38,669 bases of DNA, taken from assembly GCA_017467705.1 (NCBI GenBank), contig JAFUSC010000100.1:1-38669 (forward strand), written 5' to 3'. This DNA comes from Prevotella sp. Lineage in GTDB: Bacteria; Bacteroidota; Bacteroidia; Bacteroidales; Bacteroidaceae. The notes under the pieces were generated by a model. The model had not been told where the DNA came from, made no database searches, and saw only the letters and a program-made list of their open reading frames with translations. Below, in pieces: positions 13,650 to 16,562 of this stretch. Both the position numbers and the translations under genes were made by a program. Positions within the stretch are counted from its first letter, which is position 1; each line of letters opens with the position of its first letter.

Positions 13650-13880
13650 ATGGGTGATAGGGAATTGGATTATAAAATACAATACATAGTACTATGTGTC
13701 AGTGAGTTTGCCAGTCGCTACCATTTGACGAACAGACAAGCTTACGCATATCTAAACCGTTATGAAGGGCTGTCTTTTCTTGATGACTGTTATGAGGCAG
13801 AGCACACATTATCATTAGATGACGCTGTTGCTGATTTGACGGTTGTGTGTAAACGAAATGGAGGAGGACTTGGCGCATGA
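13650..13880 (+). CDS. DUF3791 small protein, putative antitoxin
   Basis: The 76-residue product resembles DUF3791: a helical protein with YIVLCVSEFASRYHLT, then QAYAYLNRYEGLSFLDDCYEAEHTLS, and an end in DLTVVCKRNG. The family is typically found directly upstream of DUF3990 genes. Here its stop overlaps the next start (ATGA at 13877-13880), indicating coupled translation. An antitoxin or partner role for the downstream ADP-ribosyltransferase-like protein is a reasonable inference from the pairing but is not shown by the protein. Confidence 0.75.
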   Translation: MGDRELDYKIQYIVLCVSEFASRYHLTNRQAYAYLNRYEGLSFLDDCYEAEHTLSLDDAVADLTVVCKRNGGGLGA

Positions 13881-14353
13881 GACTATATCACGGCACTAAT
13901 GTCGATTTCCAACAAATAGATATAAACCTGTGCAAGCCTAATAAGGACTTTGGCCGAGGTTTTTATTTGACGGACATTGAATCGCAAGCACAAGCTATGG
14001 CCGTCAGGCGGACGCGCTTAGTCGGTGAAGGTTCCCCCGTGGTGTTATCCTATGAGTTTGACGAGAAACTCCTGACAAATGGAAAACTCAAGGTGTTTCG
14101 TTTTGACAAACCGAATCGTGAGTGGGCTCTTTTTATCTTGAATAATCGCATGGCATCGGAAACAGGCTATCAGCATGACTATGACGTTGTCATTGGCCCT
14201 GTGGCCGATGATGGTGTTGTATTTCAACTTAATCTCTTTATGAATCATGCCATCAGCGAAGAGCAGTTAGTAGGACAGCTGACTTATCGTAAACTGAACA
14301 GGCAGTATTTCTTTGGAACAGAGTTCGCTATTTCACAACTTCACCGAATATGA
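13877..14353 (+). CDS. DUF3990 ADP-ribosyltransferase-like protein, putative toxin
   Basis: The 158-residue product begins MRLYHGTNVDF; the HGT at residues 5-7 and GRGFYLT at 26-32 are the NAD-binding motifs of the ART-fold DUF3990 family. Later family marks are REWALFILNNR (81-91), YDVVIGPVADD (102-112) and QYFFGTE (143-149), where Glu149 could serve as the catalytic acid. It overlaps the genes on both sides by four bases (ATGA), forming a tight three-gene unit with DUF3791 upstream and a 73-codon gene downstream. This fits a toxin-antitoxin or phage-defence module that modifies a cell target with ADP-ribose. The target is unknown. Confidence 0.78.
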   Translation: MRLYHGTNVDFQQIDINLCKPNKDFGRGFYLTDIESQAQAMAVRRTRLVGEGSPVVLSYEFDEKLLTNGKLKVFRFDKPNREWALFILNNRMASETGYQHDYDVVIGPVADDGVVFQLNLFMNHAISEEQLVGQLTYRKLNRQYFFGTEFAISQLHRI

Positions 14354-14613: not shown

Positions 14614-15522
14614 ATGAAGATGACAATGAGGATATTTTTATTTGTGTTGCTGTTGGCCATGCTGCCGACGACGGAGACCTTTGGACAGATCAAGGACCGC
14701 GTTGCGAAGCCGCGTCCTAAACCGCCGACGACAACAACGACAACGAAGCCCAAACCGCCGAAGAAGAAACCGACAAAGCCGACGACGACCACCACGCCGA
14801 CGCAGCCAAGTGTCAACACGCAGCCGCGTGCTAATGAGACCATTACGGTGAACGGCGTTTCGTTCCGAATGATTGGCGTTCAGGGCGGCACGTTCACGAT
14901 GGGTGCCACGAGCGAACAGGGTTCGGATGCATATGACAGTGAGAAACCTGTGCATCAGGTAACGTTGTCGTCGTTCAGCATCGGCGAGACGGAGGTGACG
15001 CAGGAGTTGTGGCAGGCGGTGATGGGCAGCAACCCCTCTAACTTTAAGGGCTCTCGTCGCCCCGTTGAGAAAGTTTCGTGGGAGGACTGCCAGACGTTCA
15101 TCACGAAACTGAATCAGTTGACGGGCCGTTCGTTCCGTCTGCCAACGGAGGCAGAGTGGGAATATGCCGCGCGTGGCGGCAACCGCTCTAACAGCTATAA
15201 GTATGCGGGTGGCAGCAGTATTGGTGATGTGGCTTGGTATTACGACAACATCGGCAATCAGACGCACGATGTTGGAGGGAAGCGTGCGAATGAGTTGGGC
15301 TTATATGACATGGCTGGCAATGTGTGGGAGTGGTGTCAGGATTGGTACGGCTCATACAGCTCGGGCAGTCAGACGAACCCTCGCGGTGCATCTTCGGGCT
15401 CCGGTCGCGTGAGCCGTGGGGGCAGTTGGTTCAGCTACGCGGGGAGCTGCCGCGTGTCGGGTCGGAGCAGCCTCACGCCCACGATCCGCGACTTCATCTT
15501 GGGGCTTCGGCTCGCCCTCTGA
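14614..15522 (+). CDS. Exported FGE/C-lectin-fold protein with a DGR-like variable C-terminus
   Basis: The 302-residue product has a Sec signal (RIFLFVLLLAMLPTTETFG, cut before Gln), a Thr/Pro/Lys-rich stalk (about 30-70) and a formylglycine-generating-enzyme/sulfatase-modifying domain (about 78-300), a C-type-lectin-like fold. Domain marks are GGTFTMGATSEQG, IGETEVTQELWQAVMG, RLPTEAEWEYAARGG and GLYDMAGNVWEWCQDWYG. The C-terminus keeps the usual frame RGGSW...CRVS.R...TPT.R...GLRLAL, but the positions normally filled by Asn are variable residues with codons of the form NNC or NNT. That pattern fits adenine-directed mutagenesis by a retroelement, as in Treponema TvpA. A catalytic FGE role is unlikely; ligand binding at the surface or in the periplasm is inferred. 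It starts 42 bases after the ART module with no promoter of its own that I can see. Confidence 0.85.
   Translation: MKMTMRIFLFVLLLAMLPTTETFGQIKDRVAKPRPKPPTTTTTTKPKPPKKKPTKPTTTTTPTQPSVNTQPRANETITVNGVSFRMIGVQGGTFTMGATSEQGSDAYDSEKPVHQVTLSSFSIGETEVTQELWQAVMGSNPSNFKGSRRPVEKVSWEDCQTFITKLNQLTGRSFRLPTEAEWEYAARGGNRSNSYKYAGGSSIGDVAWYYDNIGNQTHDVGGKRANELGLYDMAGNVWEWCQDWYGSYSSGSQTNPRGASSGSGRVSRGGSWFSYAGSCRVSGRSSLTPTIRDFILGLRLAL
15415..15519 (+). other. Putative DGR variable region (VR)
   Basis: Codons 268-302 of the FGE-fold gene. At twelve positions where relatives carry Asn, the codons are TTC, AGC and TAC (273-275), AGC (278), GGT (283), AGC, AGC and CTC (285-287), ATC (291), and GAC, TTC and ATC (293-295). 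All are one or two changes from AAC or AAT at the first two bases, with C kept in the third in eleven of twelve. The residues between them (Trp, Cys-Arg-Val, Thr-Pro-Thr, the final Gly-Leu-Arg-Leu-Ala) are conserved. This is what copying from an AAC-rich template with changes only at adenines would leave. No matching template or reverse transcriptase is in the window. Confidence 0.65.
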
Positions 15523-15549
15523 GTTCAGCCGCATTTGCCGCTTTAGTTC

Positions 15550-15790
15550 AGCCGCATTTGCAATGCGGCTGCTGTTGGTCGGTGCATTTTTAATGCACAA
15601 AGAACGAGCAGAGGATAAGGTGCATGGCGTGTGGATATGTGGTGCATTGCAAATGCACCGACCAACTGCATCGGCATTGTAAATGTCGATGAACGGGAAT
15701 GCCGATGAACGGGGATAAGGTGCGTGGGCGTGGATATGCGGTGCATTGCAAATGCACCGACCAACTGCATCGGCATTACAAATGCCGATG
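15550..15790. repeat. Array of six 3-base-loop hairpins with ATT/AAT stem tops
   Basis: Six inverted repeats lie at 15550-15570, 15582-15598, 15641-15659, 15669-15691, 15740-15758 and 15768-15790. Stems are 7-10 bp and all close with ATT-nnn-AAT, the outer bases being AGCCGC, GTGC, GGTGC or CATCGGC. The third and fourth hairpins form a unit of about 100 bp that is repeated as the fifth and sixth. The first begins 28 bases after the stop codon of the variable-protein gene. The rest of 15523-15942 holds no gene that I can support. Confidence 0.85.
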
Positions 15791-15942
15791 AACGGGGAAT
15801 CTTTCTGTCTGCAAGCAGGGAAGAACAGGGTGTATGTCCTGTCCGTACTCTTTATTAGATTGTGCGGAGAATGATTATTCAGCAGGATGTCCTTAGTAGG
15901 CTGCCGATGCCGAAAGGGACATCCTGCTTAAATATAGTATAG

Positions 15943-16562
15943 CTATGGATTAGGGTATGCCATATCAATACCTCTGGGTAGAAAGTATCCCTTGATGCAA
16001 TTCGGATTACAGACGCATAACTGGATATGGTTCTTCTCAGCGAAGCCCGCATTTGGGTATAACGGTTTCCCTTCCCAAAATACACCTTTTACAGAGTCGT
16101 ATGGACGCTTATTGGCTAGTTTGTTGTTTTGTGCATTGTCTCAATCACGGCACAATCTAATTTGCGGAGTAACAAATCCGTAGAGTTGCCCATATTTGTA
16201 TTTTGGGGCATCGACATTCCCGTCTCTTTGCACATTGCAACCAAGGTTTCATAGCCTTTCTTCAATTCCTCCAGACATAATGAGTCTGTTAAGTCCAAGC
16301 AATACCCCAAATCAATAATGGCGCCAATAACGGCAGGCGTTTTGACTGATGAACTCTTACGTTTTGCAAGTTCTTCTGCCCATTGCAGTGCTCTTGCTTC
16401 ATTGTTCTCCCAAAAGTAGATGCCATTGCCCAGCCAGTCGTAATCATTAGTACTGGCGAGGAGAGCGTCCTCGCCAGCAACTACTTTATCCACCACAGAC
16501 TGGTCGCAACCATGAAAACCGATAACAAGGTTCGACCGTCTTGAATACAAGGTCTCATTCAT
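15943..16562 (-). pseudogene. ADP-ribosyltransferase-like gene, frameshifted
   Basis: The frame from ATG at 16562 encodes 148 residues with ART-like marks (LVIGFHGCDQS at 13-23, YDWLGNGIYFWENN at about 41-54) and stops at 16116 just after METMHK-type residues. Shifting by one base, translation resumes as ANKRPYDSVKGVFWEGKPL and ends in KGYFLPRGIDMAYPNP with a stop at 15943. This continuation matches what I remember of the family's C-terminus. Restoring one A to the A4 run at 16127-16130 joins the two parts into about 206 residues. It may be a decayed toxin, a slippage-controlled gene or a sequencing error. Its start overlaps the stop of a 47-codon partner gene. Confidence 0.75.

Follow-up and report, generated by a model that had tools for sequence, protein, structure and literature searches.

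A probable dispersed DGR target encoding an apparently exported TvpA-like protein in a Prevotella genome bin

The window, by which we mean the whole stretch of DNA analysed, is one entire contig of 38,669 bases (C48) from a genome bin (G000) that comprises 2.53 Mb on 170 contigs, with a completeness of 77% and a contamination of 4.26%. It contains a gene whose last 35 codons were described in the initial annotation as looking like the variable region of a diversity-generating retroelement (DGR), a bacterial system that rewrites chosen positions of a binding protein, served by a reverse transcriptase (RT) and a template located elsewhere. The features of the locus are listed below.

14614..15522, forward strand: target gene, encoding a probably exported protein of 302 aa with an FGE-sulfatase / C-type-lectin-fold domain (open reading frame, Pfam and PDB matches)
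14614..14688, forward strand: probable signal peptide, with a basic start and a hydrophobic stretch ending in ...TFGQ (translation read by eye; end approximate)
14689..14838, forward strand: linker rich in Pro, Lys and Thr (translation read by eye; edges approximate)
15370..15525, forward strand: tract almost without silent differences from the gene on contig C114 (83% identity to G000:C114:10561-10716)
15397..15519, forward strand: variable region, in which the AAC/AAT slots number 14, with 12 lying within 15415-15519 (differences from C114, and their fall on adenines of foreign templates)
15520..15526, forward strand: stop codon and following bases, TGAGTTC, a candidate homing-initiation end by its position
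15549..15571, no strand assigned: perfect hairpin with a 10-bp stem and a 3-nt loop, 26 nt past the stop, a candidate DGR hairpin/cruciform

Residues 86-301 of the encoded protein match Pfam family PF03781 (E 5.9e-49), and the top PDB match is 2y3c, Treponema denticola variable protein 1 (TvpA; E 9.4e-46), in an alignment that extends to residue 301 of 302. Formylglycine-generating enzymes (FGE) rank behind TvpA in the same search, with a best E of 1.6e-23, and the protein is nearer in sequence to TvpA than to these enzymes. Judged from its sequence, the gene has the make-up of a DGR target, a C-type-lectin-fold domain and, at the 3' terminus, the variable region. A structure model of the protein (mean pLDDT 64.9) was poor in the tail, with residues 247-283 below 50, and was left unused. 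Relatives of the gene with a named source belong to Prevotellaceae and other Bacteroidales, and many derive from ruminant MAGs. The bin holds 10 FGE matches, two of which lie side by side on another contig, with about 750 bases between them (G000:C11:14237-14809 and 15555-16217; L008 and L009). A DUF3990 gene (PF13151) lies shortly 5' of the target gene at 13877-14353, and an open reading frame 3' of it on the opposite strand (16116-16562) resembles the DUF3990 gene by eye.

The slot codons in 15415-15519 read TTC AGC TAC / AGC / GGT / AGC AGC CTC / ATC / GAC TTC ATC. All 12 are NNY (11 NNC and one NNT), just as the initial annotation had described them. The probability of such a run is 0.0014 by the codon usage of the window and 0.027 given the amino acids present, and the codon pattern by itself is weak, suggestive evidence of a DGR.

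A self-comparison of loci for adenine-biased near-repeats recovered the cassettes L021, L030, L069, L077 and L083, each with an adjoining RT gene; by eye, the remaining rows of that comparison were short repeats or hairpins. Later additions, L105, L142 and L143, bring the total to eight cassettes with an FGE target, an RT and a template; the RT of L143 is split over two frames, and L083 has a variable region that departs from the 35-codon frame. Translated in the same frame, the foreign templates give RGGSWNNNARNCRVSNRNNN... or close variants of it. The statement that relatives carry Asn at the slots holds for these templates, in which the slots are AAC or AAT except for one each in L142 (AGT) and L069 (GAT), and fails for other targets, which vary there. 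Codons 15403 and 15412 are also AAC/AAT in several templates, bringing the slots to 14 in all. Where the window has TGAGTTC, many related targets have TAGTTC or TAGTTT and most templates TAGCTC. We counted 65 tails with 12/12 NNY among the 105 distinct ones of the family that fit the frame, and six of the 65 are templates by our tally; the count covers tails fitting the 35-residue frame, as do 4 of the 10 FGE matches of the bin itself and not the other six. In the cassette of the congener G009 (L105), a gene between target and RT (L105:1059-1553) encodes an HRDC domain (PF00570, E 1.8e-7).

The matter is settled by comparison with a second gene of the bin, on contig C114, which matches the 3' end of the window gene at 83% over 156 bases. 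Over the 199 codons upstream of this stretch, the two genes differ at 46 first, 38 second and 105 third positions, as is usual for old paralogs. The corresponding counts are 0, 0 and 1 in the 9 codons of 15370-15396, and 13, 9 and 4 in the 41 codons of 15397-15519. Third positions thus differ in 105 of 199 codons upstream and in 5 of the last 50 (Fisher P 1.8e-8), these five requiring an A in the template or drift. Within the variable region, 18 of 28 first and second positions of the slots differ but none of their 14 third positions; in the backbone, 4 of 54 first and second positions and 4 of 27 third positions differ. Since silent differences vanish in the tail while slot differences stay, the two sequences indicate that a single adenine-mutable template was the source from which both were rewritten and that the tail is a real DGR variable region. 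The low third-position counts (slots and backbone alike) further suggest that the last rewriting was recent relative to the divergence of the remainder of the genes. With contamination at 4.26%, the two genes likely, though not provably, come from one cell.

The same conclusion is reached from the foreign templates. Between 19 and 23 of the 26 differences in the variable region coincide with adenines of each of the eight (23, 20, 22, 22, 21, 19, 20 and 20 of 26; hypergeometric P 8e-13 to 2.7e-9). The confinement of differences to template adenines is therefore seen indirectly, through foreign templates and through the slot and third-position counts of the pair. Together these observations strongly support the DGR-type variable region proposed in the initial annotation, and the stretch delimited there is real; the homogenised tract is longer, running from about 15370 to 15525, just past the stop.

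Backbone and slot positions were compared for six tails, leaving out G257:C71 and C35 because of indels and G232:C1 because it is shorter. A third tail from the bin, that of the paralog on C28, is also 12/12 NNY, yet differs from the window gene at 10 of 27 backbone third positions, as an older leftover or the product of another template would. The same count, 10 of 27, separates two tails of the congener G232, as would be expected of old leftovers or tails from other templates. In G153, a genome with no match to a DGR RT at E <= 1e-30, three 12/12 NNY tails lie on one contig (L022, at 357, 3514 and 5819); one pair of them, compared separately, is identical at all 23 backbone third positions and differs at 12 of 24 slot positions.

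Phage BPP-1 requires a hairpin downstream of its variable region (PMC3240598), and the window has a candidate for one, with a stem score of 10, below the cut-off of 12; the C114 gene scores 15. Stem scores of at least 12 occur after 27 of 97 family tails and in 1 of 291 random control stretches of the same loci, and are equally frequent in 12/12 NNY tails (16/58) and in other tails (11/39). The window hairpin is also a member of a local GCATT-AATGC repeat family. A palindromic cluster at 15546-15800 has five copies of the core GCATT-NNN-AATGC, all at 15554-15785, against 0.14 expected in the window; it includes the near-repeats 15631-15697 and 15730-15796 (94%) and looks like a REP-type repeat family, and a similar hairpin follows the C28 paralog. 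The local repeats and the low stem score make the role of the window hairpin uncertain, and since stems are as common after tails that are not 12/12 NNY, hairpins are weak support for a DGR in this family.

We therefore read the gene as a dispersed, or remote, DGR target that probably encodes an exported, TvpA-like protein with a C-type-lectin fold, its cassette having been, or still being, elsewhere in the species; we put the probability of this reading at about 0.9. By analogy with BPP-1, the DGR reverse transcriptase would copy a template RNA of about 130-150 bases with errors at adenines, and the cDNA would replace the 3' end of the target gene. AAC and AAT codons would become NNC and NNT with the frame intact, so that the binding residues vary, and we infer that the protein binds varied ligands. 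The cassette itself might lie in the unassembled part of the genome or on another replicon, or might have been lost recently.

The reported absence of RT and template from the window is confirmed and extends to the 170-contig assembly. The target is not part of a complete cis cassette, since no RT or template was found in the 38,669-base contig. In the whole bin, at its 77% completeness, PF00078 gave no match, and a profile built from five DGR RTs gave none at E <= 10. A template search with 15370-15525 as query returned FGE genes and short noise only. The L021 template, the sole foreign template used as a query in this genome, matched C114 (E 1.7e-13) and C48 (E 2.1e-12), and otherwise gave three matches at E 0.28-0.99. 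As a control, the five-RT profile finds the RT of G009 at 510 bits, and PF00078 recognises it at 63 bits.

Across the genus, the RT profile finds matches at E <= 1e-10 in 49 of 150 genomes; G009 alone exceeds 200 bits, and the weaker matches are unclassified. Five genus genomes with similar tails (G000 and four others, 77-87% complete) have no RT match at E <= 0.01; chance absence from every one of these assemblies is unlikely, and loss is possible. The DNA searches of the genus scored two candidates per genome in one round and up to five in another, and templates of congeners may have been missed. The profile was also run on 50 of the 69 genomes behind 80 relative loci, all 50 with FGE relatives. 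Eleven match at E <= 1e-30, seven of them above 290 bits and four at 109-144 bits, these last being unclassified. A tail could be counted in 43 of the 50, the seven others including the genomes of L083 and L052, both among the seven that bear an RT above 290 bits. Thirty-eight of the 43 have a 12/12 NNY tail, and 33 of these 38 have no DGR RT above 290 bits, against five that do. By eye, the table of relatives shows no clear excess of targets at contig ends.

Carriage by mobile DNA was considered as well. A motif scan flagged no RT beside six viral relatives of the target, its one hit there (L101) being an FGE protein by eye, and carriage by phages was rejected on these loci. Viral relatives of the RT reach at most 40% identity to a cassette RT among the best 80 of 553 matches listed. 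Plasmid and phage collections gave RT matches in 14 and 49 records, each below 60% identity and at most about 35% among the matches listed (8 of 14 and 8 of 49), and these gave no sign of a mobile element with this RT clade. A strict template pattern had no viral match; a looser one had two, of which L240, an IMG/VR contig, encodes an FGE-type template (RGGSWNNNANNCRVANRNNNNPSNTNNNIGFRVA, at L240:8092-8271) and L241 does not.

Evidence that such targets can be served in trans comes from a relative, G162, whose template and RT lie on a contig of 43,693 bp and whose remote target L031 lies on one of 105,106 bp. Over 144 bases the remote target differs from the template at 21 positions, all 21 of them template adenines, and the mismatches of the cis target are likewise 21 of 21 at adenines. 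Against the same template, the L045 target of G173, a genome with no RT match at E <= 1e-30, has 24 mismatches, 22 of them at adenines. Two further candidates fit less well: L046, in G162 itself, is unfit as a target of that template (31 of 108 mismatches at A), and the remote target L076, on the contig of the L030 cassette, is a poorer fit, with 23 of 31 mismatches at A and 8 elsewhere. At E <= 0.001 the G009 template finds no match beyond itself and the cis target; remote targets thus exist in the order without being universal. In our bin, the window gene and its C114 counterpart are separate targets with one backbone, which implies service in trans at some past time. The initial description of the gene as a remote target served in trans is thus partly supported, with sequence evidence from G162 and, for the past, from this pair; ongoing service in G000 is one possibility, and loss of the cassette or a gap in the assembly would suit the data equally well.

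Whether the cassette persists divides the preferred reading in two. That it is still in the species, absent from this assembly or carried on a separate replicon or mobile element, has in our judgement an even chance. The recent homogenisation of two targets, the incomplete and fragmented assembly and the perfect fit of the G162 remote target to its template all favour persistence; the lack of an RT in five of five genus genomes searched with similar tails, and the low identities of the plasmid and phage matches listed, speak against it. That the cassette has been lost from the species or strain, leaving variable regions frozen and drifting, is a serious possibility to which we give slightly less than even odds. 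Loss would account for the absence of RT and template from G000 and of an RT from four congeners with similar tails, as well as for the scarcity of strong RT matches among relatives (7 of 50 genomes; 5 of 38 when only those with full NNY tails are considered), and it has a precedent in eight T. denticola isolates reported to have targets with no RT and no template (PMC4891356). It fits less well with the recent rewriting of the C48/C114 pair, with the pair in G153 that differs at no backbone third position although that genome has no RT match, and with the incompleteness of our own assembly.

Since most genomes with full NNY tails have no strong RT match, yet G000 and G153 hold recently homogenised pairs, one may speculate that FGE-type DGRs of gut and rumen Bacteroidales operate by a division of labour, in which target-only genomes would be served in trans, intermittently, by sporadic cassettes in the species or on mobile DNA, diversification being a shared service. 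We regard this as unlikely.

Explanations that dispense with a DGR fare far worse. One such alternative is diversifying selection of the ordinary kind, acting on the exposed loops of an FGE-family protein with a bias for codons ending in C. It could draw on the modest codon probability once amino acids are given, on the 40 family tails, out of 105, that vary at the same positions without being 12/12 NNY, and on residues such as E, K or W at slot positions in the paralogs on C94 and C153. It leaves unexplained why silent differences are nearly absent from a tail whose upstream sequence has so many, and why the differences coincide with adenines of foreign templates, and we consider it very improbable. 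Hardly credible at all is ordinary gene conversion between the two genes, which would account for their common 3' end and for the abrupt change near 15370 from divergent to near-identical sequence, but would have copied the slots too; like selection, it is contradicted by the slot and third-position counts.

A DGR target can thus be recognised without its cassette, from two paralogs in which silent differences vanish and slot differences remain. In the sampled genomes targets exceed reverse transcriptases, for which assembly loss, cassette loss or intermittent service in trans could each be the reason, and the contrast between frequent targets and rare RTs raises the question of how the target proteins are kept diverse. 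A large global metagenome survey states that its own approach would not detect remote targets (PMC8144416), and such targets are probably under-counted in fragmented genomes.

Remote and leftover DGR targets are a kind already known from other bacteria, and a literature search judged by titles returned none plainly on a Bacteroidales FGE-type remote target. FGE-sulfatase is described as a common target domain in human microbiomes, where targets on contigs without an RT were sought (PMC4159848), and sulfatase-modifying-factor proteins have also been named as DGR targets (PMC6642488). The DGR of T. denticola, with TvpA, resembles our case in its FGE-sulfatase/C-lectin targets, in having several dispersed, remote targets per template and in the isolates that retain targets without RT and template (PMC4891356); here the genome is of Bacteroidales type, its assembly is incomplete, and the template is deduced from two targets and foreign templates. 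The remote variable proteins of cyanobacteria, with 76 remote targets reported, are similar in being C-lectin paralogs that are dispersed far from the cassette and resemble its template, but are multidomain and mostly predicted to be cytosolic, whereas the present protein is apparently exported and has a linker and one recognised domain (PMC7517822). The DGR of BPP-1, which acts on Mtd, shares adenine-restricted rewriting at the 3' end of the target; it is a phage cassette with an adjoining target, and for the hairpin behind its variable region the window offers a candidate known from sequence (PMC3240598). The eight cassettes L021, L030, L069, L077, L083, L105, L142 and L143 have the same target family, frame and template slots as the window gene and differ from it in that RT and template adjoin the target, with a distance of about 1.7 kb in most of them between the start of the variable tail and the template that follows.
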